The notes under the pieces are model-generated. The model worked only from the letters and a program-made list of their open reading frames with translations, was not told the DNA's origin and did no database searches. Below are positions 10,243 through 44,958 of a DNA stretch of 64,000 nucleotides, piece after piece (the stretch's first letter is position 1; each line of letters begins with the position of its first letter). Source of the stretch: Sedimentibacter sp. MB35-C1. Lineage in GTDB: Bacteria; Bacillota; Clostridia; Tissierellales; Sedimentibacteraceae. The stretch spans positions 3,038,001-3,102,000 of the forward strand of contig NZ_CP133188.1 in the NCBI RefSeq assembly GCF_030913635.1, written 5' to 3'. A program made the translations under genes and the position numbers.

Positions 10243-10296
10243 AACTAGTAATAAAAAGGTTTGCCTAAAAACAAAAAATTGAAGGGAGTGTAATTG

Positions 10297-11622: not shown

Positions 11623-11633
11623 GGAGGTGTACA

Positions 11634-28052: not shown

Positions 28053-28270
28053 TGCATACCCCTCAACATATCTTGAAGAGCATTTTTAAGAAAATTAAAA
28101 TACTCGTCGTCAATTCTATTTATAGCAAATCCTGCATGCACCATGACTTTATCACCAACTCTTGGCTTGTCGATTAACAAAATATTTACTTCTTTTCTAA
28201 CCCCCATTATATCTACCTCCGCATGGGGTTCATTAATATTGATTACTTTTGCCGGAATCGCAAGGCACAT
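28049..28270 (-). CDS. hypC: Hydrogenase assembly chaperone HypC
   Basis: This 73-residue chaperone begins MCLAIPAKVI, with the essential Cys2 that carries the iron fragment to the hydrogenase large subunit. VGDKVMVHAGFAINRID is the family core. The gene overlaps the hypF 3' end by 38 bases. Confidence 0.95.
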   Translation of the reverse strand: MCLAIPAKVININEPHAEVDIMGVRKEVNILLIDKPRVGDKVMVHAGFAINRIDDEYFNFLKNALQDMLRGMQ

Positions 28271-30539: not shown

Positions 30540-30783
30540 CCCCATCAATATTTTTAATAATAGCCGTAAGTTTTTCATAAGGTTTATGCTCAACATTTAT
30601 GACTGTCCATTCACCAAACATAACACTGTCACGATCTTTCAAATGAGATAAAAGATGTGGTCCTTCAATATGGCTGCCTTCATCAACTTCAATATTTATT
30701 TCATTTATTTTAACAATTCCATTTTGTTCGCAAAGAGTAATAATAGATTGATATATTTTTTCTATCAAGTGTGTATCATGCAT
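30526..30783 (-). CDS. HypA-like protein lacking the zinc ribbon
   Basis: This 85-residue protein begins MHDTHLIEKIYQSIITLCEQ, recalling the HypA nickel-binding start MHE and the alpha/beta N-terminal domain. Full HypA proteins have about 113-140 residues with two CxxC motifs binding zinc. Here neither motif is present; the only cysteine is in TLCEQNG. The operon position between protease and hypF supports a nickel-insertion role. I start it at ATG 30783, because the TTG two codons earlier would precede the family start. HypB is not encoded anywhere in the window. Confidence 0.7.
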   Translation of the reverse strand: MHDTHLIEKIYQSIITLCEQNGIVKINEINIEVDEGSHIEGPHLLSHLKDRDSVMFGEWTVINVEHKPYEKLTAIIKNIDGDVFE

Positions 30784-31240
30784 TGTCAATTTCCTCCTTT
30801 ATATTTAAAATTGTTGTTAAAACAATATTGCAAATCTTATCAAATGATTTTTGAAGCGGTTCGCTTAGCTCAAATCCAAAGCCTATTTCAGCTGCTTCAA
30901 TACCAATTAAATAACCTTGTGATTTCGGATGATACAAGTCAATTAAGTCAAAAAGGCTGAATTCGTGTTGTGTACGTAACCTTCGGCGATTTTTTAATGC
31001 GTAACTGAGAAGCATTATATCAACACTGCCAGGTTCTTTTTCCTGTGTCATAGCATCAATTATAATTAAAAAATCCTCAGGCTTAATTTCATCAAAACAA
31101 CATTGAAAATCTGTTTCTCCAACTAATGAATCAATACCACGCGTGCTGAGATTATCTTGAATAGCACCAACAACCTTTGATCCTATTCCATCGTCACGCA
31201 TAACACAGCTTCCAATACCTATCACAAACATCCGTTTCAT
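30776..31240 (-). CDS. Hydrogenase maturation endopeptidase
   Basis: This 154-residue protease of the HyaD/HycI family removes the C-terminal peptide from the large subunit once nickel is inserted. Nickel-sensing residues are in GIGSCVMRDDGIGSKV (residues 8-23), the aspartate in IIDAMTQEKEPG, and the histidine in RTQHEFSLFDLI. It overlaps the large-subunit stop as ATGA. The large subunit ends in a 15-residue extension after its last motif, which is its expected substrate. Confidence 0.9.
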   Translation of the reverse strand: MKRMFVIGIGSCVMRDDGIGSKVVGAIQDNLSTRGIDSLVGETDFQCCFDEIKPEDFLIIIDAMTQEKEPGSVDIMLLSYALKNRRRLRTQHEFSLFDLIDLYHPKSQGYLIGIEAAEIGFGFELSEPLQKSFDKICNIVLTTILNIKEEIDNA

Positions 31241-32646
31241 GGCACTACCTTCATAGTTTTAATTAAACTACCATTTGTATAAACGTGAGTAGCACAAGAA
31301 ACACATGGGTCAAAGGAGCGTATAATTCTTCCAATCTCTACCGGAGAGTCTGTGTTCTGTATTATTGTACCAATCAACGCCTTTTCTCCAGGGCCAGGTA
31401 AATTATCTTCACTTCTCGTTGAAAGATTCCATGCAGATGGAGTGATAATCTGATAAAGCGATATTACGCTGTTTTCAATTTTCATCCAATGACCCAAAGC
31501 CCCTCGCGTAGTGTCAATCAAACCTGCACCTTTAGCATTCTCAGGGACTTCATATTCTTTTTGAACAGAAATTCCTGGAATAACGTTATTAAGAAGCGTA
31601 AGAATAATATCTGCTATTTTTGCGGCTTCAAGAACTCTGGCCAAAGTTCTGTCCATTGTAGATATTCCGTTTCTGTATTCGCCGCAAAGCCACATTCTTG
31701 CCAACGGCCCAACCTCATAAGGAAGTCCTCTATACCTTGGAGCTTTCACCCACGAGTATGCATCAATTTTATCCATATCAGGTTCAGGAATTGTTTGATA
31801 TGGCGTATAAGTATCTTCGTTTGCTATGTACCATGATGAGTAAATATTTTCAGTAATTTCTGCCGGATTAAGTTCCACAATCTTGCCTCCGCTGTACGCT
31901 AAAGGATTAACATAAAGAGTTCCAAGCTTTTCATATTCATTAAAACAGCCAAAACTGAGAAGATTTCCGTAACCTCGTCCAATTCTAAAATACTCTTCAT
32001 AGTATTCAGCAATGGTATAAGCATCGGGTATCATTTTATTGCAGATAAATTCTCTAATATTTTGCAGAAGAGATCGTAACTGCAATATTTTCTCCTGCGT
32101 TGCCTGCGATGTAATTCCGCCGATAAAAACTCCATGGTTATGCGGAGCTTTTCCTCCTAAAACAGCCAGCATTTCATGCGCATTTCTGCTATACACGAGA
32201 GAATCAAAATAATGCTGTACAATTAAATCATTTTTTTGTTTTGGCAACCTAAAGTCATTGTGGTTAGTTTCAAAAAGCGTATTGCCTTCAGGCAGCTTTA
32301 TAAAATCAGGTGCCGTGTACTGATAAAAATGTCTTATGTGGTTTTGAAGAAATTCGCATCCATGAATTATATCTCTCAAATATCTGCCCTGTTGAGAAGG
32401 AATAATACCAAAAGCATCCTCCAGCGCCAGAGTTGATGCCATTGAATGAGCAGCTGAACAAATACCGCATATTCTTTGAGTAAAATATACGGCATCAAAG
32501 GGGCTTCTCCCCTCCAGCATTTTTTCAAAGCCCCTGAAAAGCAAACCTTCTGTTTTTGCATCTGTTACAGTATTATTGCCAATGATCGCATCGATTTCCA
32601 TAAACCCGCTAATTCGGGTAACAGGACTAATTTTTACTCTCTTCAT
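31237..32646 (-). CDS. NiFe hydrogenase large subunit
   Basis: This catalytic subunit of about 469 residues has the N-terminal motif TQRICGICSAAHSMAS (L1) and the C-terminal SFDPCVSCATH (L2), together supplying the four nickel-binding cysteines. A 15-residue extension follows the histidine and would be removed by the protease next door. FRGFEKMLEGRSPFDA before L1 resembles uptake-type (group 1/2) enzymes. The start is ATG 32646, with AGGAGAG upstream. The longer open frame overlaps the small-subunit gene and lacks a site. No Tat-signal partner exists, so the enzyme is cytoplasmic. Confidence 0.93.
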   Translation of the reverse strand: MKRVKISPVTRISGFMEIDAIIGNNTVTDAKTEGLLFRGFEKMLEGRSPFDAVYFTQRICGICSAAHSMASTLALEDAFGIIPSQQGRYLRDIIHGCEFLQNHIRHFYQYTAPDFIKLPEGNTLFETNHNDFRLPKQKNDLIVQHYFDSLVYSRNAHEMLAVLGGKAPHNHGVFIGGITSQATQEKILQLRSLLQNIREFICNKMIPDAYTIAEYYEEYFRIGRGYGNLLSFGCFNEYEKLGTLYVNPLAYSGGKIVELNPAEITENIYSSWYIANEDTYTPYQTIPEPDMDKIDAYSWVKAPRYRGLPYEVGPLARMWLCGEYRNGISTMDRTLARVLEAAKIADIILTLLNNVIPGISVQKEYEVPENAKGAGLIDTTRGALGHWMKIENSVISLYQIITPSAWNLSTRSEDNLPGPGEKALIGTIIQNTDSPVEIGRIIRSFDPCVSCATHVYTNGSLIKTMKVVP

Positions 32647-32659
32647 TTTTTCAGCTCTC

Positions 32660-33547
32660 CTATGTAGTATCGTAACTAATAAATGGTTCCATTTTATCAG
32701 GAAACCCAAACATGGCACAGCCAATGCAAGGACTATCATCCTCAATAGGCCAGTTTACACCCTCATTCCACTTTCTGACGGGGCAGTCAACTCTTGTGAC
32801 CGGACCTCTGCATCCAATCTTAAACATGCAGGTTTTTTCTCCAAGTTTCGATGCAAAAATCCCGCTGTCAAAATATTTTCTCCTTGGACATATATCATGA
32901 ATTAACGTGCTATAAAGCATAATCGGACGTTGCCTGCTATCCAATTCCGGTTCTCCAAAAAGCATTATGTAAGCAAGTGTTCCCATAAACCAGTCAGGGT
33001 GACATGGACAACCCGGAAGCTTTATAACCTTTTTGTTTAGTAAGCTTTGAATGCCCACACATTGAGCCGGATTTGGCCTTGCCGCAGAAATACCTCCGTC
33101 GGAAGCACATGTACCCACAGCTATAACATAAGCAGCCTTTTCCCCAAATTTTTTAATTGCGTCATATGCAGTTACAGGCTGGCCTCTCCACCTTCCGATA
33201 ATATTGTACAATCCGTTATTCTTCGTCGAAACAGCGCCCTCAACAGCTAATATGTAGTCGTCATCGATAACACTAAACAATTTTTCCATGGCGTCTTCAC
33301 CTTCAGCTGCCATTAGACTATTGTCATAAATAAAATTTACCATTTGAGTGGCCAGACTTTTAAAATCCGGGTTTGCCCCATCCAGAAGGGAAATAATATT
33401 TCCTGAACATCCTGTAAGCTCAAACCATATTAAATTTCTTTTTTTTATTTTATTTTGTTTAACAGAATCTATTACTTTATGAACAAGCAAAGATGTCGTC
33501 TCTAACCTAGTGTAAAAATTCGGACAAATACTAATTTTTTCATTCAT
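32660..33547 (-). CDS. NiFe hydrogenase small subunit
   Basis: This 295-residue iron-sulfur subunit carries electrons from the NiFe site. It lacks a Tat signal and C-terminal membrane helix, so it is soluble. The proximal-cluster motif, normally CxxC, reads ELTGCSGN: Leu44 replaces the first cysteine and only Cys47 remains. Other ligand candidates are VGTCASDG, LPGCPCHPDW, HDICPRRKYF, KTCMFKIGCRG, VDCPVRKWN and PCIGCAMFGFPD. It overlaps the cytochrome b5-like gene upstream as ATGA. The substitution suggests a different fourth ligand, as known in some other hydrogenase groups. Confidence 0.92.
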   Translation of the reverse strand: MNEKISICPNFYTRLETTSLLVHKVIDSVKQNKIKKRNLIWFELTGCSGNIISLLDGANPDFKSLATQMVNFIYDNSLMAAEGEDAMEKLFSVIDDDYILAVEGAVSTKNNGLYNIIGRWRGQPVTAYDAIKKFGEKAAYVIAVGTCASDGGISAARPNPAQCVGIQSLLNKKVIKLPGCPCHPDWFMGTLAYIMLFGEPELDSRQRPIMLYSTLIHDICPRRKYFDSGIFASKLGEKTCMFKIGCRGPVTRVDCPVRKWNEGVNWPIEDDSPCIGCAMFGFPDKMEPFISYDTT

Positions 33548-33978
33548 TCTACCATCTTCCCAACCACCTTCAATTTATTTAGAACCGGCTGACCTGCGTG
33601 ACATGAAGCAAACTGATTGGTTACGTCAGTACCGGCCGAAAGTCCAAAATGAGTCGCTCCTCCCCAAGCCGCATTATTCGTTATATCATATACAACGCCA
33701 TTTACTGCCACATACGCCGGATTTCCGTTCCTGCCGTTATATGTTGATAGTTCAGCTTCCGTAAATATTCTGGTTGTATCTGGTTGTAAAATATTAGTAC
33801 TATCACTATCCTCCAGACCTTGAACCAGAGTGGTAATATTGGATATATTTTTGCGCAGGCGATTTAAAAGCTTATTTTTAGCGCAAGAATTTGGGGTTAT
33901 ATATAAACAATCGATTATGTCATTTATTTCATTTAAATTATCGTTTATTAAATTTATCAAAATTTCACTATTTTTCAT
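33544..33978 (-). CDS. Cytochrome b5-like heme-binding protein, first gene of hydrogenase operon
   Basis: This protein of about 144 residues has a charged helical N-terminal half (1-65) and a C-terminal cytochrome b5-type domain. FTEAELSTYNGRNGNPAYVA opens the domain, followed by VYDIT. The two probable heme histidines lie in GATHFGLSAG and FASCHAGQPV. There is no signal peptide or membrane helix. As the first gene, overlapping the small subunit start, it probably serves as electron partner of the hydrogenase. ATG 33978 has AAGGAG upstream. Confidence 0.82.
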   Translation of the reverse strand: MKNSEILINLINDNLNEINDIIDCLYITPNSCAKNKLLNRLRKNISNITTLVQGLEDSDSTNILQPDTTRIFTEAELSTYNGRNGNPAYVAVNGVVYDITNNAAWGGATHFGLSAGTDVTNQFASCHAGQPVLNKLKVVGKMVE

Positions 33979-34132
33979 GTATAATCTCCTTATATGCTTA
34001 TTCAAAATTAGTACATTATATTCTATATAAATTTAAATGTGTTTGTGGCAATTGCCCTTTCCGTTTTACCGCAGATGATATCATTAAGAGTGAAATTCTT
34101 GTTTAAATAATTCAGGTTTCCTAAATATAAAA

Positions 34133-34245: not shown

Positions 34246-35013
34246 TTACGTTATGCTAACTATTTTATCAGAAAACACAATTTTTCCGTCATCTAGCAAT
34301 ATTATGTCCCCAAGAAAATTGTTCACCGCACTTACATTTGTTTTTTTGCACAAATTCTCAGGCGATTCTGTTAACACTATTTCACCATCAAACATAAAAG
34401 CTATTTTGTCGCTCATTAAAAATGCATCTTCTTTGTCGTGGGTGATCATAACAATGGTTGTATTAAATTTCTTATGTATTTTTAAAATAAAATCACGAAT
34501 ATAAATTTTCAGATTATTGTCAAGACCTGTGAAGGGTTCATCTAAGAGCAGTACCTTTGGTTCAACAGCCACTGCCCTCATTAAAGCCACCATTTGCTGC
34601 TGACCGCCTGAAAGCTGTGAAGGATATTTGTTTAAATGTCCATTCATATTAAAAAAGTCCATTAATTCATCTGTCTTTTTATCAATACGGCTTTGGCTTA
34701 ATTTCTTCATCTTCATTCCAAACTGAATATTATCCTGCACACTTAAGTGAGGAAACAGTTTATTTGATTGATGAACCATAACAATCTGCCTTTTTTCCAT
34801 GGGCACATGATTTATAGCGTTATTGTCCAATATAACCCTGCCGCTGTCAGGGGCAATAGCTCCTGTGATTACCCTCAGTGCAGTTGTCTTGCCTGCTCCG
34901 CTGGGCCCTAATATGGAAAACAACTGTCCTTTTTCAATATTTAAGTTGATATTTTTTAAAAGTTTATTTTTTCCTATAGAATAATTTATATTTTCTAAAG
35001 CTAAAAAGCTCAT
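34246..35013 (-). CDS. YnjD-like ABC transporter ATPase
   Basis: This 255-residue nucleotide-binding subunit has Walker A GPSGAGKTT (residues 37-45), the signature LSGGQQQMVALMRAV, Walker B VLLLDEPFTGLD, and the switch histidine in MITHDKEDAF. It is the last of a nine-gene minus-strand operon and overlaps the permease stop by four bases. By itself it resembles spermidine/iron-type ATPases. The neighbouring YnjB-like binding protein places it in the uncharacterised YnjBCD transporter group. Confidence 0.9.
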   Translation of the reverse strand: MSFLALENINYSIGKNKLLKNINLNIEKGQLFSILGPSGAGKTTALRVITGAIAPDSGRVILDNNAINHVPMEKRQIVMVHQSNKLFPHLSVQDNIQFGMKMKKLSQSRIDKKTDELMDFFNMNGHLNKYPSQLSGGQQQMVALMRAVAVEPKVLLLDEPFTGLDNNLKIYIRDFILKIHKKFNTTIVMITHDKEDAFLMSDKIAFMFDGEIVLTESPENLCKKTNVSAVNNFLGDIILLDDGKIVFSDKIVSIT

Positions 35014-35792
35014 AGTATTTTTCCTTTGTTAAATGATTTTTCAATTAGCGAACATAGTGCCATTACTATTATACCATACAATATGTACATTAAAGTATAC
35101 ACTGATGAAATGTTTCTGTCAGAACCTGTAATGTAAGGTGTCATTATCATGGAGAAATTTACAAACCTTGAATCTCCTATGAAGAAATTTATAAAGTACT
35201 GTGAATACGAAATTATAAATGCCATAATAAAGCTTGTAACATAACCCTTTAAATAAATTGGCACATTGATTAAATAAAAAGACTTCCACCTTGAAGCACC
35301 CAGACCTCTGGCTATGTGCTCCTGCTCAATTCCCCAAACTTCATAGCATGAATAAACTATTTTAAAGGAATAAGGCAGAGAAAAATATATGTGAAGCAAT
35401 ATTACTATGAGTCCACTGCATCCGGAAAATAAGCTAAGAAACATTTTATGGCTTCCAATGCATACGCTGACAACAGGTAGAAGCATTGGAAGGTAAAACA
35501 AGCTTTCAAGCTGAATTTTATATTTAAAATCCGTTGTTATAAAAAATCTAGAAAGCATTATGCTTAAAATCAAAGAAATAAATGCTACCTGCAATGAATA
35601 CACCACTGACTTTAATGCAATTATACAGTCTTGAGAATTAAAAAAATATGCAAAACCTCTTATTGTAAAATTTTGCGGAAGCAGATTTTCAGCTCCCCAA
35701 CTTGAAAAAAACGACCATAAAATCATTGATACAAGAGGTAACAAAAGAAATATCATAATAACAATAAATATAATTTTATTTAATATTTTCAT
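35010..35792 (-). CDS. ABC permease, C-terminal half of a YnjC-like pair
   Basis: This 260-residue protein has six predicted helices and the permease EAA loop around RGLGASRWKSFYLINVPIYL, which docks to the ATPase. In E. coli YnjC both permease halves are in one polypeptide; here they are two genes overlapping by four bases. The substrate is not known. Confidence 0.85.
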   Translation of the reverse strand: MKILNKIIFIVIMIFLLLPLVSMILWSFFSSWGAENLLPQNFTIRGFAYFFNSQDCIIALKSVVYSLQVAFISLILSIMLSRFFITTDFKYKIQLESLFYLPMLLPVVSVCIGSHKMFLSLFSGCSGLIVILLHIYFSLPYSFKIVYSCYEVWGIEQEHIARGLGASRWKSFYLINVPIYLKGYVTSFIMAFIISYSQYFINFFIGDSRFVNFSMIMTPYITGSDRNISSVYTLMYILYGIIVMALCSLIEKSFNKGKIL

Positions 35793-36652
35793 ATTGCACC
35801 TTCATTCTCACTTTTTAAAAGCCTGTAGTATAAAACACAAAGCAATAAAGAAATTGCTATCATAACCATGTTCATTGTCATGCCGTAGGCACGGTATGTC
35901 ATATCCGGATTTATATAATTATTATATACAAGCACTCCCATTGAAGGAGGATTTGATGGTCCTAAAAAATAAAAACCTTCGTATGCAAATAAATTATAAT
36001 TAAATACAACTAAAGCAGAAGAAAGTATTGCTCTTTTGCAAAGGGGCAGTAAAATTTTTCTTACATACATAATATTTGTACAGCCAAGGTTTCTTGCAGC
36101 TTCCTTATATGCATCATCGGTTTTTAACAATATGGGATAAACAGAAAGTGCAATAAATGGAACTCCTTTAAACACATTGAGCAAAATAACGGCCAATCCC
36201 TTTGAATTATAAATAATATTTAAATTTTTTATTTCAAACCCCAAAAATTGAAACATGTGAAACAAAAGTCCTTTATCGCTGTATGTATTGTAAATTAAAA
36301 CCGCTGCAGCAACATAAGACAAAAAAATCGGAAACCTGTATGAAACATTTACAAATGAATTTTTTGATTTAGCAACAACATATCCTAAATATGTGCCAAA
36401 CACAGCCGACAACAAAGCTGATGTTAAAGCAACAAAAATACTGTACAAAAAACTACTCACAAATATCTTGTCCGTAAAAAGATTTGCATAGTATTTAAAG
36501 GTTAATTCATTTAAAAAAAGCTCAGGAATTAAACCTAAGCTTTCCTTTAAAGTATTTATTAGAACATATGCTGTAATGGAAAACACAATTAAAAATGAAG
36601 GCATTACTAAAATTGTGTTACTTATTTTATTGTTCTCCAAAAAGAACCACAT
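35789..36652 (-). CDS. ABC permease, N-terminal half of a YnjC-like pair
   Basis: This 287-residue protein has about six helices and an EAA-type loop (DDAYKEAARNLGCTNIMYVR) for ATPase contact. It overlaps the binding-protein gene by 26 bases upstream and the second permease by four bases downstream. That arrangement argues for tight stoichiometric production of the transporter. Confidence 0.87.
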   Translation of the reverse strand: MWFFLENNKISNTILVMPSFLIVFSITAYVLINTLKESLGLIPELFLNELTFKYYANLFTDKIFVSSFLYSIFVALTSALLSAVFGTYLGYVVAKSKNSFVNVSYRFPIFLSYVAAAVLIYNTYSDKGLLFHMFQFLGFEIKNLNIIYNSKGLAVILLNVFKGVPFIALSVYPILLKTDDAYKEAARNLGCTNIMYVRKILLPLCKRAILSSALVVFNYNLFAYEGFYFLGPSNPPSMGVLVYNNYINPDMTYRAYGMTMNMVMIAISLLLCVLYYRLLKSENEGAI

Positions 36653-37823
36653 CCTCCCAAACTTTTTCTATAATGTTTACCAAATCAGCTTTTAATTCAG
36701 GTTGCTTGTGATCGGACAGTTCATCATAGGCTAAAATACTATTTTTATATTGCTCTGAAGGTGTTAATGATTCATCAAGACTTTTTTGTTCATCTTCACT
36801 TAAGTTATCATATTCTAAAACCGGAAGGTCTCCCCATCCGCTCAAATCTGCTTTTGATATTTGCATTTCCGGAGAAAGCGCAGCTTCAATTAGCTTCATG
36901 GAATTTTCAACATGTGGTGCATTAGCTGCTATTGCCAGATAATGAGTATTGAAAGGTGTTCCATTTTCCCACACAAATGTTTCTGTGCTTTCGCTCCAGC
37001 TCTTGTCCATCACTTTACTCAATGCTTTGTTTGCATTGTAATCCATTGCTATATAAATTTCCTTATCCTGATATAAGCCGTCAAGCTGAGCAGAATCCTT
37101 TGGATATGTTTTTCCTTCCTTCCAAAGATATGGTTTTATTTCATTCAAATAGTTCATTGCAGGCATTACAGCTTCTTTAACTGTTTCATAATCTGCTGGA
37201 AGATCCTTAACATTTTCATAGCCTACAATATCGTATATAACAGTTCGTACAAAAGCAGAACCCACAAAATCAGTAGCTTCAGGATACGTGAATGCACCCG
37301 GATTATTTATAAGCATCTCTTTTAGCTCTTGAGAATTTTCTGGTGGTTCAGGCAACAGTTCCTTGTCATGAACAAAAACAAACTGAGCTTTTCCCCAAGG
37401 CGCTTCGTATCCTTCTGTTGGATATCCGAAATCCACAGTTGCCTCAGGTCCTTTTAAATCCACATATTTTTGCGCGTTTTCTATTTTATCCAAAAATGGC
37501 CCGTACAATAAATCATACTGTTTAGCATAATAAAAATTTTCTCCGTTAATCCATATAACATCAATAGAGCCATTGTTGCTGTAATTTTTCTCATTAGTAA
37601 GCTTCATTAAAATTTCATCAATATTCATTGGAACACGAACGACTTCAACACCGTAGTTCTCCAATGCATATGGCGCCAGTTTGCTGTCAATCCATTCATT
37701 GACTCTCTGATCACCGCCCCAACCGTATATGGTTACTGTATTATCTTCTTTGGGCCTATTAGCAAATATTGCTCCTAAAATAATAAACACTATTAATCCA
37801 ATTATTATTATTTTATTTCTCAT
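36627..37823 (-). CDS. YnjB-like ABC substrate-binding protein
   Basis: This 398-residue extracellular binding protein has an N-terminal hydrophobic anchor (IIIIGLIVFIILGAIFA) but no lipobox cysteine, unusual for a Gram-positive binding protein. The GSIDVIWINGENFYYAKQYD block followed by LLYGPF (about residues 85-110) is characteristic of YnjB (COG4134). ITIYGWGG-like VTIYGWGGDQRVNEWI lies at the start. The substrate is unknown for the whole family. It overlaps the phosphatidyltransferase gene by 11 bases. Confidence 0.85.
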   Translation of the reverse strand: MRNKIIIIGLIVFIILGAIFANRPKEDNTVTIYGWGGDQRVNEWIDSKLAPYALENYGVEVVRVPMNIDEILMKLTNEKNYSNNGSIDVIWINGENFYYAKQYDLLYGPFLDKIENAQKYVDLKGPEATVDFGYPTEGYEAPWGKAQFVFVHDKELLPEPPENSQELKEMLINNPGAFTYPEATDFVGSAFVRTVIYDIVGYENVKDLPADYETVKEAVMPAMNYLNEIKPYLWKEGKTYPKDSAQLDGLYQDKEIYIAMDYNANKALSKVMDKSWSESTETFVWENGTPFNTHYLAIAANAPHVENSMKLIEAALSPEMQISKADLSGWGDLPVLEYDNLSEDEQKSLDESLTPSEQYKNSILAYDELSDHKQPELKADLVNIIEKVWEDVVLFGEQ

Positions 37824-38412
37824 GAATTTCCTCCAACGCTTTTATAGCTTCTATAAGTCTTTGTATTGCAGTAAACAATACCAATCCGGCATATATAAAT
37901 GCTATTTCTTTCATAAAGGAATTTAATATCATCATAACAGTAAACATTATAAATCCTTCAGTTCTTTCCATGAGGCCTGCCTGATAGCGAAAGCTTTTCT
38001 TCCCATTGTTCGTCATCAACATGCCTGAAGTTAAAAATACTGACATTGAAAGAACTATTGCACAAGTCAGACAGAGAAATGCAAAGGTAGATTCTTGGTG
38101 CTTAAGTGCAAACACAACTATAAAAGTTAGTTCAACCACTCTGTCAAAACAAATATCCAACAACGTTCCGGATTTAGTAATTAAATTCATTTTTCTTGCC
38201 ATTGCCCCGTCTACAGCATCTAAAAATCCTGAAAACCACAACAGTATTATTGCTGCAAGAATGTTATTAAAATAATACATTATGCTTGCTAAGATTCCCA
38301 CAACCAAAGCAATGCATGTGACTTGTGTGGGTTTAAACTTTGAATTAATAAAAAACTTCGATGTTATGTCAAAATATTTATCTAAATATTTTCTGCCATA
38401 TGTGTCAAGCAT
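37813..38412 (-). CDS. CDP-alcohol phosphatidyltransferase (YnjF-like)
   Basis: This 199-residue membrane enzyme contains the complete catalytic motif D-x2-D-G-x2-A-R-x8-G-x3-D-x3-D in the stretch DAVDGAMARK ... SGTLLDICFD (about residues 65-90), with four to six helices. It should transfer a phosphatidyl or related group from a CDP-alcohol to an unknown acceptor. E. coli ynjF is the corresponding gene beside ynjBCDE. It overlaps both neighbours by about 8-11 bases. Confidence 0.87.
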   Translation of the reverse strand: MLDTYGRKYLDKYFDITSKFFINSKFKPTQVTCIALVVGILASIMYYFNNILAAIILLWFSGFLDAVDGAMARKMNLITKSGTLLDICFDRVVELTFIVVFALKHQESTFAFLCLTCAIVLSMSVFLTSGMLMTNNGKKSFRYQAGLMERTEGFIMFTVMMILNSFMKEIAFIYAGLVLFTAIQRLIEAIKALEEIHEK

Positions 38413-39196
38413 TGCCTTGCTCCTTCTTAATAAAACTTACCGCATTAAATCTATTCACCCAAGACGATGAGGATTCCGTTTCAAACAACAGCTCAAGTAC
38501 GTGTTTAGAATCGTAGGAGTTTTGTTTAAAAGTATCCCTGCATGAAGCGCAATAAGTAACTATCTTTTTTGAAGGTGCTTGTGATGCGCGAAGTTCAAAA
38601 AGCTTTTTGCCCTTTTCAGGATACAGTGCCATAAGCATATTTTTCTTGCCGCAGCAAACTGTATTTTCCCTGTTGTTTTTAAATTCCAGCACTTCAACTC
38701 CAAGTTTATTTAAAATATTTCTAACATGCTCCGCTGCCTCTATGTCATTGACTATTGGACAGGGATCATGAAGTGAATAAGCTTCGCCTTTCAAAATATT
38801 GTATTTTTCCTGTGGGAAAATTTCATCTATTATTGCCCATGCTGAATGCACATTGACTTCTTTGTATTCTGACAGTGTTACAAAACAGTTTGGGCACAGT
38901 GTGTATATGTTTTTTACTTTGTTTTCTTCAAACAATTTGTGCAGATTATCTTCTATTTTTTTATAGCCATCGCCATTATATATATGCTTTGACGGCTTAC
39001 CGCAGCAATATGTGCTGTAAGCAAGTCCGGGCACTTTCTTTTTAAGAAGGTTATACGATTTCTCGGTTATTTCTTTTCCAAGAGATAAAACAGCACAGCC
39101 GGGCCAAAAAATATCCCGGCCCGGTTGTATATTAGCAAATATTTTACTATAGCTCATCAATTGATGATTTTTAACAATTAATTCTCTGTAGTTCAT
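38405..39196 (-). CDS. CCG-domain Fe-S redox protein (HdrB/GlpC-like)
   Basis: This 263-residue protein has two cysteine-rich CCG domains of the heterodisulfide reductase B type: WPGCA, TYCCGKPS and LCPNC in the first half, then HDPCPI, VCCGKKN and TYCASC in the second. Such domains bind unusual noncubane 4Fe-4S clusters and handle thiols or disulfides. It is soluble. Within this cluster it could couple sulfur chemistry at a lipid or transported substrate to redox carriers, which is speculation. It overlaps the downstream phosphatidyltransferase by eight bases. Confidence 0.83.
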   Translation of the reverse strand: MNYRELIVKNHQLMSYSKIFANIQPGRDIFWPGCAVLSLGKEITEKSYNLLKKKVPGLAYSTYCCGKPSKHIYNGDGYKKIEDNLHKLFEENKVKNIYTLCPNCFVTLSEYKEVNVHSAWAIIDEIFPQEKYNILKGEAYSLHDPCPIVNDIEAAEHVRNILNKLGVEVLEFKNNRENTVCCGKKNMLMALYPEKGKKLFELRASQAPSKKIVTYCASCRDTFKQNSYDSKHVLELLFETESSSSWVNRFNAVSFIKKEQGNA

Positions 39197-39199
39197 AGT

Positions 39200-39916
39200 T
39201 TATAGTTCTTTCGTTTTATTTTGTCTGTCATTGTATAAATGTTTCACTAAAATAACTAAAATACTCAGTGCAAACAATATTAACAGGGCAGTTACAAACA
39301 TTTGCGCCCCACCTGTAAGCATTCCACCAACGTAGGAATAAATTATTGTTGCAGGCAGCTGTCCTATACCTGTCGCTACAAAAAACGGTATGAAACCTAT
39401 TGATGTAAGTCCTGCTGCATAACTTATGTAGTCAAAGGATATAAAAGGAAGCAACCTACAAATTATTATGGTGTGTTTCCCGTACTTATCAAAAAATCCA
39501 TCCACACTTTCAAGAGCAAACTTACTCGTAATTTTTTCAACTGCATCTCGTCCCAATATTCTTGCTATATAAAAGCACAGCGCTGCTCCTGCCATTGAAC
39601 TGGTCCAAGATAAAATTGCACCCTGCCACCATCCGAATACTGCTGCATTGGCAAATGTTATCAAAAACGCAGGCAACGGCGCTGCCAATGATTGAAACAT
39701 CATCAGAAAAAATGATACAACAGCAGCATAGACACCAAAGGACCTTACATATCCAATTATCATGTCAACGCTCATAGAGCTGAAAAGCATGAAAAGCCAG
39801 TTAATTTTAGATTTAACCTCTGGTATCAATAAATAAGATATCACAACTAATGCCAATATTGCAATAAGTATATATTTAATTATTCTTTTGTTTTTTAACG
39901 ATGTATTACTGTTCAT
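39200..39916 (-). CDS. TVP38/TMEM64 (DedA-superfamily) membrane protein
   Basis: This 238-residue protein has about six helices and the TVP38/DedA core, FANAAVFGWWQGAILSWTSS near residue 85 and RLLPFISFDYISYAAGLTSI near residue 155. E. coli YdjX and YdjZ are the corresponding pair at the ynj locus. Related DedA proteins move lipid carriers across membranes. Four bases separate it from the CCG gene. Confidence 0.87.
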   Translation of the reverse strand: MNSNTSLKNKRIIKYILIAILALVVISYLLIPEVKSKINWLFMLFSSMSVDMIIGYVRSFGVYAAVVSFFLMMFQSLAAPLPAFLITFANAAVFGWWQGAILSWTSSMAGAALCFYIARILGRDAVEKITSKFALESVDGFFDKYGKHTIIICRLLPFISFDYISYAAGLTSIGFIPFFVATGIGQLPATIIYSYVGGMLTGGAQMFVTALLILFALSILVILVKHLYNDRQNKTKEL

Positions 39917-39927
39917 ATTCCACCTAA

Positions 39928-40860
39928 TTATTTTTCTAATTCGTTAACTGCACTCCATCTGTAAAAAGATTCATCATAGTTGTATGAGTTTTCAAAACCG
40001 GCCATTTCCAGAACAAGCTGCATATATGCAGATCTAATTCCAGCTGTACAGTATGTAACAATTTTATCATCTTTGCTTAATCCTGCATCTGCAAATATTT
40101 TTGTAATATCCTCGTTGGATTTTAAAGTGCCGTCTTCCTTAAATAAGTCTGTATATTTAATATGGATAGCTCCCGGTAAATATCCGCCATTTGCTTCTCC
40201 GTAAAGAACCTCCCCTTCGTATTCTTCATCTGCACGAACATCAACAACCTTATAACTGTCATAATCAGCGGCTAATGCATCTGTATTTATATTGTGTGCA
40301 TTATTGATTTCAGAAACAACAACTTCCGCAGGAACAGGTTCTGCTGCCCCTTTTACTATATTTAATTCCGCATCACTTAAAGAAGCAAATCCGCCGTCAA
40401 CCATTTTTACATTTTCGAAACCCGCAGCTATTAATTCCCAAGCTATTCTTCCTTCATCTCCCCAGCCTTTCTGCGCTGCTCCAAATATAATTATTTCTTT
40501 ATCCTTGCTTATTCCAAGATTGCTCAGTGTTTCGCTTAATGTAGCAGGTTCAAGAATTGTCCCCCACATTGGGTCTCCCGGTTTTCCTTCCACATCAGCT
40601 AGCGTTTGCCAAACAACTGCAATTGCACCTTCAACAGTACCTTCTTTTGCAGCATCTGCACCTCTTGCATCAATTAACAATACATTATCTTTGCCTGAAG
40701 CTGATTTAACATATTCAGCGTTAACCAGATATTTTCCTTCAAAAGCTGAGCCTTCATTTGAATCAACAGGTTCTGTGACTTCAGGCTGCTCATTAGCAGC
40801 ACATCCGGCTACAACCATACTTAACACTAAAATTAATACTAGAATCCTTGAAATTTTCAT
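39928..40860 (-). CDS. Lipoprotein with two rhodanese domains (YnjE-like)
   Basis: A secreted protein of 310 residues whose lipobox VAGC sits after a hydrophobic signal, so it is lipid-anchored outside the membrane. Two rhodanese domains follow. The second has an active-site cysteine loop YCTAGIRSAY (Cys271 of this reading). The first has the loop IFGAAQKGWGDEG without cysteine and is probably structural. Start ATG 40860 suits the AGGAGAG site better than ATG 40866. It would transfer sulfane sulfur outside the cell or at the membrane face. Confidence 0.87.
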   Translation of the reverse strand: MKISRILVLILVLSMVVAGCAANEQPEVTEPVDSNEGSAFEGKYLVNAEYVKSASGKDNVLLIDARGADAAKEGTVEGAIAVVWQTLADVEGKPGDPMWGTILEPATLSETLSNLGISKDKEIIIFGAAQKGWGDEGRIAWELIAAGFENVKMVDGGFASLSDAELNIVKGAAEPVPAEVVVSEINNAHNINTDALAADYDSYKVVDVRADEEYEGEVLYGEANGGYLPGAIHIKYTDLFKEDGTLKSNEDITKIFADAGLSKDDKIVTYCTAGIRSAYMQLVLEMAGFENSYNYDESFYRWSAVNELEK

Positions 40861-40906
40861 TTTCATTCTCTCCTATTGTTTTTTATATTAACATTTCTCA
40901 TGTTAA

Positions 40907-41581
40907 TTACTCATTATTGTTCACAATTTCAGATTTTAAGTTGAAAATTTTCTTTGGAAGTATAATAAGTGCACATAAGGCAACTAATAAAAAACTAGAA
41001 TATAATACTATTTTATCCATTGCCATCGAACTGTAAGCCAACGCTCCAAAGCAAGTGTATATAAATGTGCCTGGCACCATAAAAATCAATGAATACCAAA
41101 AATATGTGTTAAACCTTATGTCCGTAATCCCGTAGACGTAATTTTGCAAATTAAACGGAAACAATGGAATCAATCTGCTTATAATTAATATTGTGTTGCC
41201 GTGTTCCTTAATGTAACTATCAAGTTTTGACATACGTTCGTTTTTCTCAGACATTTTCTTTACAGAATCCCTGCCTATGTATCTGCCTATTAAAAAAGAC
41301 AAAGAAACTCCTATTGTTGATCCAATAACCACATAGACAGTACCCCAAAATGCCCCAAATATTATTCCCGCCAACACTGTTATTGGAAGTCCGGGAACAA
41401 ATAAAACAGTGGCTAAAGCAAACATTACAATAAACACACAAGGTGCCATAATACCAAATGATTTAATGTACAGCTTAAGCTCATTAATGTTATCAAAACT
41501 GAAAAAATCATATATTTTATATTGCTTAATTACAATTATTAATACTAAAAAAGTAAGTATTATAAAAATTTTTTTCTTCAT
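40907..41581 (-). CDS. TVP38/TMEM64 (DedA-superfamily) membrane protein, first gene
   Basis: This protein of about 224 residues and six helices has VLAGIIFGAFWGTVYVVIGS and RLIPLFPFNLQNYVYGITDI, the same core as its paralogue 1 kb downstream. It heads the nine-gene minus-strand operon. ATG 41581 is preferred because it is spaced six bases from AAAGGT. Earlier in-frame ATGs are not. Confidence 0.87.
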   Translation of the reverse strand: MKKKIFIILTFLVLIIVIKQYKIYDFFSFDNINELKLYIKSFGIMAPCVFIVMFALATVLFVPGLPITVLAGIIFGAFWGTVYVVIGSTIGVSLSFLIGRYIGRDSVKKMSEKNERMSKLDSYIKEHGNTILIISRLIPLFPFNLQNYVYGITDIRFNTYFWYSLIFMVPGTFIYTCFGALAYSSMAMDKIVLYSSFLLVALCALIILPKKIFNLKSEIVNNNE

Positions 41582-41812
41582 TATCATACCTTTAATTAAT
41601 AAATTATCAAAGTCTATCACTTATATTAACACAATTAGACAGTTAATTCTAATAATATAAATTCATATGAAATAGGCAGTATAGAAGTTTTTTTTATATT
41701 AATACTATAAATACCATTACAATAATTTTAATTATTTAGATAAAATTGGAACCATATAAAAGTTTGGAAATATTTTTTATTTTTTTATAACTTTTATTCA
41801 TGGTTACTTCGC

Positions 41813-41841
41813 TTGACTTAACATTTATTAACTGTTAGTAT
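41813..41841 (+). promoter_or_regulatory. Promoter of the divergent rhodanese gene
   Basis: TTGACT (41813-41818), a 17-base spacer and TAGTAT (41836-41841) lie in the 295-base divergent interval. TTAAC occurs three times around it (41818-41822, 41828-41832, 41843-41847), perhaps for a regulator. No full Rex-type site is present. Confidence 0.55.
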
Positions 41842-41876
41842 TTTAACGCTATAAAAAAACTATTTGGAGGCTAAAA

Positions 41877-42959
41877 ATGAATAAAAGGTATATATCTCTG
41901 TTTCTTGCTCTTATACTAGTGGTAAGTGTATTTTCAGGATGCAGCCAAGAACAGAAGGACTCAACCGATGAACCTACAACTGACAAACCTGCTGAAGAGG
42001 AACAATTAGAAGAAGTAGAAGCTGTTGATGTAGAAAAAGTTTTCGTTACACCACAATGGTTGCAAAGTGTAATAGGTGGAAATCAAAATGAATCAGATAA
42101 TTATATTATTTTGGAAGCTAGTTGGGGAACTGTTGATGACAGCCCTGATTACAATACAGGCCATATACCCGGCGCTGTACATGTAGACATATCAAGTATC
42201 GAAGGTGAACCATATTGGAATATTAAAACTCCCGAAGAAGTTGCGCAGGCAATGCTTGACCTTGGAATTACAAAAGATAGGACAGTAATTCTTTACGGTG
42301 CTGATGTTTCTGGAACTGCAAGAGTTGCGTATGCTTACCTTTGGGCAGGAGTAGAAAACGTTAAAGTTTTAGACGGCGGTCTGGATGCGTGGACAAATGC
42401 CGGATATGAATTAGAAACATTTGCAAACACTGCAACACCCGCAACAGACTTTGGAGCAACCGTTCCGGTACATCCGGAATACTGGACATCAATTGAAGAT
42501 GCCGCAAAAAAAGTAAGTGAAGATCCTAATTTCCGTTTGGTAAGCATTCGTTCATATGAAGAATTCAAAGGGGAAACAAGTGGCTATTCATACATTGACA
42601 AAGCCGGCGAACCAAAAGGCGCCGTTTGGGGAAAAGCAGGAAGCGATCCTTATCACATGGAAGATTACACCCATGAAGACGGAACTTGCATAACAATGGA
42701 TGAAATGAAAGAACTATGGGAAGGCCTAGATTTTACTTTAGATAACCACCTTGCTTTTTACTGCGGAACAGGCTGGCGAGCATCAATTCCGTTCTTGATT
42801 ATGTATGAAAACGGATATACAAATATTAGTGTATTTGATGGCGGATGGTATCAATGGCAAATGAATGATGAACTTCCAGTACAACTTAATGATCCAAATG
42901 CCGGTGAAGTAGTCTACACAACGGTAGGTGAACTTCCTAATGATAAAGCAGCGAAATAA
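41877..42959 (+). CDS. Second lipoprotein with two rhodanese domains
   Basis: This 360-residue secreted protein has lipobox FSGC at about residue 21, an acidic linker, and two rhodanese domains. The second carries an active-site loop FYCGTGWRASIPF (Cys296). The first has ILYGADVSGTARVAY without cysteine. It resembles the minus-strand rhodanese across the intergenic region but is more acidic and has a tryptophan in the loop, so the acceptor may differ. TTGGAGG precedes ATG 41877. Confidence 0.88.
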   Translation: MNKRYISLFLALILVVSVFSGCSQEQKDSTDEPTTDKPAEEEQLEEVEAVDVEKVFVTPQWLQSVIGGNQNESDNYIILEASWGTVDDSPDYNTGHIPGAVHVDISSIEGEPYWNIKTPEEVAQAMLDLGITKDRTVILYGADVSGTARVAYAYLWAGVENVKVLDGGLDAWTNAGYELETFANTATPATDFGATVPVHPEYWTSIEDAAKKVSEDPNFRLVSIRSYEEFKGETSGYSYIDKAGEPKGAVWGKAGSDPYHMEDYTHEDGTCITMDEMKELWEGLDFTLDNHLAFYCGTGWRASIPFLIMYENGYTNISVFDGGWYQWQMNDELPVQLNDPNAGEVVYTTVGELPNDKAAK

Positions 42960-43374
42960 AATTTATTATATATTAATATTTTTGTTCGGCGCATTAGAAA
43001 TTGCTGCAGTTATTGGAGCATACGCAGCTCATTACTACACCAAAACTCGCATGGGTATGCTGCGCCACGTTGTTTATCTAAATGGAAAATGGGAAAGACT
43101 AGTAAATATTCCTGCAATGAAATGGATTGCATTGGTAATCGTAGTTATTCTCATAATCTTTGCATGCATTCTTTATAAAAAACAAAGGAAGAATTCCATA
43201 ACTGTGAAAGTAGCAGCCATAATAACTACAGCCATAAGTTTATGGACAGTATACTACTTGCTGTTTTACAATACGGTGATTCATCGTGCCTATTATATTG
43301 TAAGTATGTGCTTCATAGTAATGACCCTATTTCAGCATATTTTATACTATTGCCTTTATCAAATCAAAAATTAA
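42940..43374 (+). CDS. Four-helix membrane protein of unknown family
   Basis: This 144-residue protein has about four hydrophobic segments (IYYILIFLFGALEIAAVIGA, a central WIALVIVVILIIFACILY, and two near the C-terminus). An extracellular-like loop rich in R, H and K follows the first. I do not recognise a family. It overlaps the rhodanese stop by 20 bases, so the two are translationally linked. ATG 42940 is spaced well from AGGTG. GTG 42928 is also in frame. Confidence 0.65.
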   Translation: MIKQRNKIYYILIFLFGALEIAAVIGAYAAHYYTKTRMGMLRHVVYLNGKWERLVNIPAMKWIALVIVVILIIFACILYKKQRKNSITVKVAAIITTAISLWTVYYLLFYNTVIHRAYYIVSMCFIVMTLFQHILYYCLYQIKN

Positions 43375-43464: not shown

Positions 43465-44322
43465 CTATTTTTTCTTAACAGGAATCCAAATTTCACTGTA
43501 GTAATTTTCATCCTTAACTCCATTTAGATAATCCTCAGAATTTGTATACATTTCAACGTCGAGGCCTGCTGCAATTTCATAATCTCTACAGTTAGGTAGC
43601 CATTCCGAATAAATTTTATTGTTCACATCCTGTAAGGATTTTGGCATTGCACCTGTGCATGGAAAAACAGCCCAAGTGTACTTTGGAATAGTTTTTGTTA
43701 TAACCCCCTCTGGCAATTCTTCAGCTTCATTAAAACTGTCTGCAATCATATATTCAAATTCATCTGAGCCCATGCTCTCATCTATGCATATACCGTACAT
43801 TCCACATACTTGATTTTTCTTTCCCTCTTGATAATACTCTGCCCAAAACTTAGGAATTTCTGCAACTGCACCTTCATACTTAAACATCTTTGATACACCC
43901 CTAACAACAAAAGAATCTTTTTCAACAATTTTGTAATCCATAACATAACCGCCTTCCAATGAAAATTTGATTTTTAGAGGAGCAAATGATTTAATCATTG
44001 CTCCGTCTTTACGAACAGAAGTAGGTGTGACACCATGAAATCTGGTAAATGCTTTTGTGAAGCTGTCCGGTGAATCATATCCGTATTTCATTGCAATATC
44101 AATTATTTTATTGTCAGTGGAAACAAGCTCACTGCCGGCAAGTGTAAGCCTGCGCTTTCTTATATACTCTCCAACTGTAAAGCCGCAGAGCATTGCAAAT
44201 CCCTTTTGAAAATAGAAGAGAGACATAAACGCTTTTTTCGCAACATCCTCCACAGTTATTTCTTCTGTAATATTCTCCTCAATATAGCTTACAACTTCAC
44301 TTATTTCTTCAATCCAACCCAT
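43465..44322 (-). CDS. AraC-family regulator with GyrI-like effector domain
   Basis: This 285-residue regulator has AraC helix-turn-helix motifs (VEDVAKKAFMSLFYFQKGFA and AMKYGYDSPDSFTKAFTRFH, within residues 20-105). The C-terminal effector domain ends YYSEIWIPVKKK. It resembles the AraC protein at 24 kb (same ending and architecture). Its target is not evident. AGGAG precedes ATG 44322. Confidence 0.88.
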   Translation of the reverse strand: MGWIEEISEVVSYIEENITEEITVEDVAKKAFMSLFYFQKGFAMLCGFTVGEYIRKRRLTLAGSELVSTDNKIIDIAMKYGYDSPDSFTKAFTRFHGVTPTSVRKDGAMIKSFAPLKIKFSLEGGYVMDYKIVEKDSFVVRGVSKMFKYEGAVAEIPKFWAEYYQEGKKNQVCGMYGICIDESMGSDEFEYMIADSFNEAEELPEGVITKTIPKYTWAVFPCTGAMPKSLQDVNNKIYSEWLPNCRDYEIAAGLDVEMYTNSEDYLNGVKDENYYSEIWIPVKKK

Positions 44323-44415
44323 ATCATCACTCCTGCTTACTAATATAGATTAACTCTTTTTAAATGGCTATGCCCGACTTTTTGTGTTATCTTTTGTCTA
44401 ATATAAAAAATAATA

Positions 44416-44958
44416 TTAAACTACTCTTCTCAGTTCTCCTGTTACAGAGTTAATTACAAGTCCATACAGCTTTATATCCTTCGGTATAAGAGGGTGATTG
44501 CGAATCATATCCACAGATTTCTTAATAGAAAAATCCAAGTCCATAAAACCACCCAGCCATGAATCAAAATCAACACCAAAATATTTAATCATATCAATAT
44601 TTTCATTTGTTATGCCACGCTCTCTCATTTTTTCTATCATTTTTTTGCTATCTGTATATCTAGCACCGCAATCCGTGTGGCCAATTATCAAAATTTCCCT
44701 CACATTTAATTCATAAATACCTATGAGAAGACTTCTCATTGCACTTCCAAAAGGATGTGAAACGACTCCTCCTGCATTTTGAATTATTTTTGCATCACCA
44801 TTTTTAAGTCCCAGGGCCGAAGGCAGTAATTTAGTTAATCTCGTATCCATACAGGAAACTATGGCAACTTTTTTGTCTGGATATTTGCTTGTTACATACT
44901 TTTCATACTCTTTATTTTCTACGAAAGCCCTATTAAACTGCAACATTTCGTCAATCAT
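44416..44958 (-). CDS. Beta-carbonic anhydrase family protein
   Basis: This 180-residue protein has the beta-class zinc site: SCMDTRL (Cys35, Asp37, Arg39) and IGHTDCGARY (His and Cys near residues 93 and 96). It hydrates CO2 to bicarbonate. It matches the shorter clostridial group of the family, lacking the longer C-terminal arm of plant-type enzymes. GGAGGATGAG lies before ATG 44958. Confidence 0.88.
   Translation of the reverse strand: MIDEMLQFNRAFVENKEYEKYVTSKYPDKKVAIVSCMDTRLTKLLPSALGLKNGDAKIIQNAGGVVSHPFGSAMRSLLIGIYELNVREILIIGHTDCGARYTDSKKMIEKMRERGITNENIDMIKYFGVDFDSWLGGFMDLDFSIKKSVDMIRNHPLIPKDIKLYGLVINSVTGELRRVV

Follow-up and report, generated by a model that had tools for sequence, protein, structure and literature searches.

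In Escherichia coli K-12 the genes ydjX, ydjY, ydjZ, ynjA, ynjB, ynjC, ynjD and ynjE follow one another in a single row, with ynjF convergent to them. The clostridial counterpart of this ydjXYZ-ynjABCDEF locus, matched to it gene by gene, is described here: a cluster of eleven genes at positions 34246 to 43374 of a stretch of 64,000 nucleotides from Sedimentibacter sp. MB35-C1 (contig NZ_CP133188.1, positions 3,038,001 to 3,102,000), which is called the window in what follows. The evidence concerning this cluster points to a gene set that was absent from the initial annotation of the window, namely the arsenosugar-type set of ArsS, TIGR04282 and TIGR04283.

Of 5426 complete E. coli genomes, 5337 contain 80% or more of the E. 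coli locus, and something has been reported of its regulation: FNR binds at ydjX (PMC2690998), and an FNR regulon table includes ydjXYZ-ynjABCD and ynjE, the latter being termed directly activated (PMC3688515). A preparation of YnjE is described as having no apparent thiosulfate:glutathione (GSH) activity, and what the protein acts on is termed unclear (PMC10215317); a 2022 paper terms YnjBCD an uncharacterized transport system, and a 2024 transporter paper counts ydjX among the uncharacterised. The literature searched, to the extent of its accessible text, holds no paper that gives the locus a function or ties it to ArsS, an enzyme of arsenosugar biosynthesis that adenosylates arsenic by radical S-adenosylmethionine (radical-SAM) chemistry (PMC12159101).

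The Sedimentibacter cluster and the E. coli locus

The nine minus-strand genes (spanning 34246-41620) and the divergent rhodanese and membrane-protein pair of the initial annotation are all in place, eleven open reading frames (ORFs) in total, with families assigned by Pfam and NCBIfam profile searches:

34246..35013, minus strand: ATPase of an ATP-binding cassette (ABC) transporter, YnjD-like (PF00005 125 bits; 33% identity to E. coli YnjD)
35010..35792, minus strand: ABC permease 2, the C-terminal half of YnjC (PF00528 23.4 bits, below the cut-off of 26.4; aligns with YnjC residues 362-501)
35789..36652, minus strand: ABC permease 1, the N-terminal half of YnjC (PF00528 49 bits; aligns with YnjC residues 36-238)
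36627..37823, minus strand: YnjB-family substrate-binding protein (SBP) (NF008633/PRK11622 377 bits, cut-off 203; SBP_bac_8; 30% identity to YnjB over 366 amino acids)
37813..38412, minus strand: CDP-alcohol phosphatidyltransferase, YnjF-like (PF01066, CDP-OH_P_transf, 55 bits; 24% identity to YnjF)
38405..39196, minus strand: HdrB-like CCG protein (PF02754 57 bits, two stretches; two complete CCG motifs, at residues 34 and 146)
39200..39916, minus strand: TVP38/VTT membrane protein, YdjZ-like (PF09335 88 bits; 55% identity to YdjZ over 231 amino acids)
39928..40866, minus strand: two-domain rhodanese lipoprotein A (PF00581, two stretches; lipobox VAGC, loop CTAGIR)
40907..41620, minus strand: TVP38/VTT membrane protein, YdjX-like (PF09335 107 bits; 34% identity to YdjX)
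41621..41876, no strand: A+T-rich intergenic region, read from the sequence as the source of both divergent transcription units
41877..42959, plus strand: rhodanese B, the closer YnjE counterpart (PF00581 100 bits; 41% identity to YnjE over 285 amino acids; loop CGTGWR, as in YnjE)
42928..43374, plus strand: small membrane protein (no family in the Pfam search; conserved in a second species of the genus, locus L057)

From 41620 downward the minus-strand order is YdjX-type TVP38, rhodanese A, YdjZ-type TVP38, CCG protein, CDP-alcohol phosphatidyltransferase, SBP, the two permeases and the ATPase; the last six of these nine genes overlap by 4-26 bases, and the remaining spacings are 3-40 bp. The YdjX-like protein may in reality start a few codons further downstream. 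A promoter/terminator scan of 41621..41876 gave promoter-like matches not above those of shuffled sequence. All eleven genes recur in the same order in L057.

A motif scan finds the active-site and cluster motifs intact in the ATPase (Walker A GPSGAGKT, signature LSGGQ), in the CDP-alcohol phosphatidyltransferase (DxxDGxxAR..G..D..D, starting at residue 65), in both rhodaneses and in both CCG domains; the same strict transferase pattern does not match E. coli YnjF itself. The top NCBIfam match of the transferase is archaetidylinositol phosphate synthase, at 97 bits (under the cut-off of 180). The relatives of rhodanese A in the PDB are thiosulfate/3-mercaptopyruvate sulfurtransferases and YnjE, and the N-terminal segment of the two-domain rhodanese B ends in FSGC, a loose lipobox unmatched by the strict pattern. 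In the same scan the SBP has no lipobox; the lipobox Cys column is at least 90% conserved in alignments of its relatives. The CCG protein corresponds to the C-terminal part (model residues 420-639; 133 bits, cut-off 530) of NF045663, a pyridine nucleotide-disulfide oxidoreductase/dicluster-binding protein whose flavin and dicluster parts it lacks.

Set against the E. coli locus, the window shares the YnjB-family SBP, the YnjC/D-type ABC proteins, two TVP38 proteins, a YnjF-type CDP-alcohol phosphatidyltransferase and an exported rhodanese with the CGTGWR loop, the strongest pairwise matches being those to YdjZ and YnjE. YdjY, the AhpD-like YnjA and one long permease are found in E. coli only; none of the eleven window proteins matches YdjY or YnjA at E 1. 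The CCG protein, the division of the permease into two and the second rhodanese are peculiar to the window, and its rhodaneses have two domains, YnjE three according to descriptions of that protein. The grouping of ydjX/ydjZ, ynjB-C-D, ynjE and ynjF that the initial annotation had given for E. coli is borne out in K-12, as is the homology of the two loci that it proposed.

Recurrence, two downstream modules and the link to ArsS

Two samples were surveyed, 150 genomes of the window's order and 378 of its phylum; "YnjB genomes" and "ArsS genomes" are those with a match over the curated cut-off only. YnjB genomes number 31 in the order (14 further genomes with weaker YnjB-family matches, E up to 0.001, are uncounted; three of these are ArsS genomes, with 18-23 bits). 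Gene neighborhoods were compared for 33 loci from the order (YnjB matches and a few weaker ones) and for the best 80 of at least 577 relatives in named genomes, the latter including Clostridia, Bacilli, Eggerthellaceae, Rubrobacter, Spirochaetota and Desulfobacterota. Genes were annotated by clustering and by comparison with the proteins of the window and of E. coli, family identities resting on representatives. From 115 loci, 82 were kept (at least 14 kb, with an SBP gene, the E. coli locus excluded), and removal of three duplicates left 79 distinct ones.

Of the 82 YnjB-type loci, 73 have one or more of the genes for TVP38, rhodanese, CCG protein and flavin reductase. Among the 79, TVP38 occurs in 56, the CDP transferase in 40, the CCG protein in 38, a rhodanese in 31, a nucleoside hydrolase in 28, an APH-type kinase in 26, a TIGR04283-type protein in 25, a TIGR04282-type protein in 24, a disulfide-reductase-type flavoprotein in 23 and a TIGR03169-like reductase in 15. 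As the comparison set serve five ArsS loci of the order that lie apart from a TIGR04282 locus: these have no TVP38, rhodanese, CCG or glycosyltransferase genes. The cluster is hardly a chance grouping. Scattering of the homologues from genome to genome would have spoken against the initial annotation; they co-occur, in several phyla, and with that recurrence the view of the initial annotation that import, sulfur or redox proteins and membrane lipid chemistry are joined in a single conserved pathway holds.

The association is also found in a plasmid collection, in which 75 records, evidently including some chromosomes, have a relative: a Klebsiella IncR plasmid carries, next to YnjBCD and a CDP transferase, a fusion of TVP38 with a MerA-like reductase, and in a Fusobacteriota plasmid the genes for TVP38, rhodaneses, a flavoprotein, the ABC proteins and a CDP transferase form one row. 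Of two Enterobacteriaceae plasmids (L220, L221), the IncR plasmid has the YnjBCD/CDP-transferase cluster with the TVP38-reductase fusion; in L221, an IncC plasmid, the gene row ends at IS26 after the binding protein. (A technical note: selenocysteine (Sec) was considered for two loci. The break in the CCG gene of L040 is a frame shift with no in-frame UGA, and the split in L047 likewise represents two frames.)

The transporter keeps one of two kinds of company: either the CDP-alcohol phosphatidyltransferase, as in the window and E. coli, or a nucleoside hydrolase, a kinase, TIGR04282 and TIGR04283. None of the 79 loci combines CDP transferase with nucleoside hydrolase, and the transferase is found with TIGR04282, TIGR04283 or kinase in only two of the 79 (L039, L040). 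The genus of the window has both variants, the CDP type in two species (the window and L057), the hydrolase type in two others (L050, L051). On a tree of SBPs (113 rows; SBPs shorter than 330 amino acids excluded) the state changes at least nine times, 4-5 of these changes being forced by well-supported branches, and the window lies in a CDP clade within a mostly hydrolase-type group. The hydrolase alignment retains Asp residues that we take to be catalytic. Two other leads were tried and set aside: 5'-methylthioadenosine/S-adenosylhomocysteine (MTA/SAH) nucleosidase, present in 20 of the 31 YnjB genomes, gives no clean split between the variants, and a PDB profile search with the kinase returned spectinomycin/aminoglycoside-type kinases only, and weakly.

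It is the second module that leads to ArsS. Within the order, TIGR04282 is matched in 35 genomes (34 over the cut-off) and ArsS (TIGR04167) exceeds its cut-off in 12; the 35 comprise 23 YnjB and 12 ArsS genomes, with none having both and none having neither. The TIGR04282 loci of the 12 ArsS genomes contain TIGR04283 in 12, the CCG protein in 11, rhodanese in 10, TVP38 in 9, the kinase in 6, nucleoside hydrolase in 2 and YnjB in none. In other words, module, TVP38, rhodanese and CCG protein are shared with ArsS genomes. ArsS is itself encoded within 7 of the 12 stretches; in the remaining five genomes its gene lies at another place. One kinase (L175) is a true 5-methylthioribose (MTR) kinase (TIGR01767, 378 bits, cut-off 275), and in several genomes TIGR04282 and an APH-type kinase form one protein (in genomes of family f4, e.g., L177, L184, L236), a fusion that occurs in ArsS genomes and in YnjB genomes. 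An AhpD-type TIGR04169 protein in L177 (157 bits, cut-off 120) and a YdjY-type gene in L202 imply that ArsS loci contain counterparts to yet other families of the E. coli locus, E. coli YnjA belonging with TIGR04169 only to the same broad CMD family. In the phylum sample, too, no genome has both YnjB and ArsS (29 and 9 genomes); the association of YnjB with TIGR04282 is weak there (Fisher p = 0.02), and the seven ArsS-TIGR04282 loci of that sample contain TVP38 in 4, rhodanese in 3 and the CCG protein in 1.

What the transporter may import

The cluster may be thought of as an import-driven pathway, the counterpart of those that start with an ArsS-type adenosylating radical-SAM enzyme (the chemistry of the ArsS pathway beyond that adenosylation being general background). 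According to this proposal, to which a probability of roughly 0.4 might be attached, YnjBCD would import a small molecule whose pentose is modified, with a 5'-deoxy-5'-substituted nucleoside or ribose derivative as the likeliest kind and an organoarsenical as a plausible one; where ArsS is missing, a compound of this kind would reach the cell through the transporter instead, to be joined to lipid and redox-processed. In the CDP variant (window, E. coli), the CDP-alcohol phosphatidyltransferase would join the imported molecule or its product to phospholipid; in the other, nucleoside hydrolase, MTR-kinase-like kinase, the CofC-like TIGR04282 protein and the glycosyltransferase TIGR04283 would lead to a riboside. 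Passage of the conjugate or its lipid through the membrane might fall to the TVP38 proteins, and the exported rhodaneses together with the cytosolic CCG or flavin disulfide reductase might supply and remove sulfane sulfur or reduce the arsenic or sulfur center. We infer the substrate, the involvement of arsenic, the order of steps, the direction of TVP38 transport and the role of the rhodaneses. A more specific version is rather unlikely: that a core anaerobic operon of E. coli, like its counterpart in clostridia, is an organoarsenical import pathway replacing the ArsS step, drawing on arsenic nucleosides or sugars made by other organisms and yielding arsenolipid-type conjugates that TVP38 places or exports.

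What connects the cluster with arsenic, apart from ArsS? Arsenite methyltransferase is enriched in the YnjB genomes of the order. ArsM-type matches, taken as those of at least 168 bits (there is a clean gap in scores from 168 to 76 bits, and 17 exceed the curated cut-off), occur in 34 of the 150 genomes: in 13 of 31 YnjB genomes, 10 of 12 ArsS genomes and 11 of the 107 others. Permutation within GTDB families gives p = 0.003 without the ArsS genomes and p = 0.006 with all genomes; over the curated cut-off the numbers are 8 of 31, 2 of 12 and 7 of 107 (Fisher, YnjB genomes against the 107, p = 0.006). The window genome has an ArsM of 291 bits (cut-off 263). In four of the 13 genomes with both (G026, G032, G116, G076), ArsM lies within 30 kb of the YnjB/TIGR04282 locus, against 0.33 expected, with uniform placement assumed, the limit set after the distances had been seen and three of the four matches under the cut-off. 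In G026 (L238, L195), two rhodaneses, TVP38 and the CCG protein stand just upstream of arsR-arsD-arsA-acr3-arsC-arsM on the same strand; since L195 holds this genuine linkage, the six ArsM control loci to which it belongs are not a clean negative. The cluster of L042 adjoins an ArsR-type regulator, an ArsP_1 permease and arsR-arsD-arsA-acr3, that of L041 an ArsR-type regulator and an ArsP_1 permease, and ars genes also occur in the stretches of four ArsS-type loci (L176, L204, L205, L215).

The SBP itself is not more specific. Its matches to solved SBPs by profile are weak and local (best 4edp, a clostridial SBP, E 6e-8; polyamine-binding proteins at E of about 4e-4). The AlphaFold2 model (mean confidence, pLDDT, 92.1) predicts an ordinary SBP fold, and the 50 Foldseek matches listed, among them PotD, FutA and AfuA types, have query template-modelling (TM) scores of 0.52-0.67. 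With these spermidine, iron and hexose-phosphate binders it appears to have the general fold in common, at 12-20% identity, and no match at the level of family: in NCBIfam only the YnjB family reached E 0.001. Clustering with a known spermidine or iron family, which had been named as a finding that would speak against the initial annotation, was looked for in this way, and the protein falls in the YnjB family. An attempt to read a ligand class from the predicted structure was abandoned, the relatives being general.

A number of observations weigh against the import of an organoarsenical as substitute for ArsS. The structural relatives of the SBP suggest no single ligand class. The division of the order does not extend to the phylum: the 23 TIGR04282 genomes of that sample comprise 5 with YnjB, 7 with ArsS and 11 with neither, which weakens any strict rule of YnjB or ArsS, and 24 of its 29 YnjB genomes are without TIGR04282. 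Seven of the 11 loci with neither have other, mostly weakly matched, radical-SAM-type genes. The window genome lacks ArsS (best match 56 bits, cut-off 300) and has no match to TIGR04282; TIGR04283 is not among the eleven cluster genes, the only part of that genome searched for it. Absence of a nucleoside hydrolase from the CDP variant implies that the two variants might import different molecules, and an independent-pairs test on the SBP tree gives about three pairs in the expected direction and 0-1 in the opposite one (few pairs, underpowered). As for arsenic, the ArsM of the window genome and the cluster are, on a circular contig, about 0.75 Mb apart, 18 of the 31 YnjB genomes have no ArsM match, and ArsM is within 30 kb in only 2 of 10 ArsS genomes (P = 0.09). 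Ars transport genes occur in only two (L042, L144) of 113 loci (L032-L144), and ars genes in that set (L042, L144, L041) are not clearly more frequent than chance, the level of which is an estimate. E. coli K-12 is not known to methylate arsenic.

The 11 loci with neither gene deserve a further word: weakly BioB-like radical-SAM-type proteins are found in four, ArsS-like ones in three, and three are unexplained; L212 has the whole module with no importer or radical-SAM gene in view. The TIGR04282/TIGR04283-type loci L210, L211, L213, L219 and L214-L216 seem to have a weakly BioB-like or another radical-SAM-type protein as their source enzyme, and some of them also a protein with an MprF-like flippase domain. 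Such loci are possibly further pathways of the same logic, with a different radical-SAM-type source.

Salvage of non-arsenical 5'-deoxy- or 5'-thio-nucleosides (5'-deoxyadenosine, 5'-methylthioadenosine or similar), with the modules recycling or disposing of the modified ribose and arsenic incidental, is a possible if somewhat doubtful alternative. It sits well with loci that have only ABC genes and a nucleoside hydrolase (e.g., L067, L074, L232), with the retained Asp residues of the hydrolase and with the true MTR kinase that can occupy the kinase slot. Two Rhodobacterales plasmids (L227, L228), with PRK11622-family ABC genes (SBPs 275 and 291 bits), add nucleoside hydrolase, dihydroxyacetone (DHA) kinase, tagatose-bisphosphate aldolase and aldehyde dehydrogenase, by annotation, a sugar-dismantling logic that is possibly a catabolic operon for a modified nucleoside; the SBPs of these two, however, are on a very long branch. 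(L227 also has an isomerase weakly like sulfoquinovose isomerase.) Such salvage leaves the rhodaneses, the CCG and TVP38 proteins, the link to ArsS and the CDP variant unexplained, and MTA/SAH nucleosidase does not track the variants.

The initial annotation had tentatively suggested import of a sulfur- or selenium-containing molecule, and in a nutritional or cofactor-supplying form, with rhodaneses as sulfur carriers, this is unlikely. Apart from the rhodaneses and disulfide-reductase-type proteins, what speaks for it is the occurrence beside the cluster, among the 82 loci, of YedE (8), TusA (8) and a "selenium metabolism" LysR regulator (11), the relation of the CCG protein to NF045663, the name of which model includes "near Sec", and a TIGR03169-related reductase (Nterm_to_SelD; 270 bits, cut-off 310) in 15 of 82. 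But YedE and TusA are confined to the same eight loci, most of them also with the LysR gene, and the gene set in common with ArsS, the kinase and the glycosyltransferases go unexplained; the failure of thiosulfate:GSH activity to appear in the YnjE preparation, as described (PMC10215317), is no encouragement. Selenium use cannot discriminate within the order, SelD exceeding its cut-off in 135 of the 150 genomes, and was dropped as a marker. Of the initial annotation, then, the E. coli homology, the conservation across phyla and the single pathway stand; the sulfur or selenium nutrient finds no confirmation, and the gene content leans towards the ArsS/TIGR04282/TIGR04283 connection.

Envelope repair or detoxification against reactive electrophiles, thiol or chlorine stress, with the transporter retrieving a membrane-lipid head group, is quite improbable. 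Of the 82 loci, 23 have disulfide-reductase-type flavoproteins (Pyr_redox_2 and dimerisation domain), AhpD/CMD-type proteins are present in E. coli and, on plasmids, in the vicinity of the cluster, and the TVP38-reductase fusion of the Klebsiella plasmid and a weak induction of ynjA and ynjB noted on BaeR overexpression (PMC2731931) would fit as well, but nucleoside hydrolase, kinase, TIGR04282/TIGR04283 and ArsS are unaccounted for.

Neighboring genes and comparison with the ArsS loci

Directly downstream of the cluster (28233-34005, minus strand) is a [NiFe] hydrogenase-like gene set, so labeled from its translations, which includes a cytochrome b5-domain protein (Pfam). Beside the divergent pair (43465-44958, minus strand) are an AraC-type regulator with a GyrI-like/Cass2 ligand domain and what is presumably a beta-carbonic-anhydrase-like protein; relatives occupy the same place in L057. 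Farther away are glycine/sarcosine/betaine reductase component B genes (10294-12721 and 13008-14498, plus strand), the second of which, a selenoprotein gene, is followed at once by a SECIS_4 element and then by a BCCT betaine-type transporter.

Why should a clostridial cluster matter to the E. coli locus? Its E. coli homologue is nearly universal in the species and has no assigned function in the literature searched, and the tie to ArsS, TIGR04282 and TIGR04283 offers a first testable direction: specific compounds can be put forward as candidate substrates, and a lipid product can be sought. TVP38, the rhodanese lipoprotein and the CCG protein are common to the ArsS/TIGR04282/TIGR04283 loci and the window, and some of those loci have, in addition, the YdjY- and AhpD-type genes of families found in E. 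coli. The window differs from them in having an ABC importer and no ArsS, and in that a CDP-alcohol phosphatidyltransferase replaces the kinase, TIGR04282 and TIGR04283.

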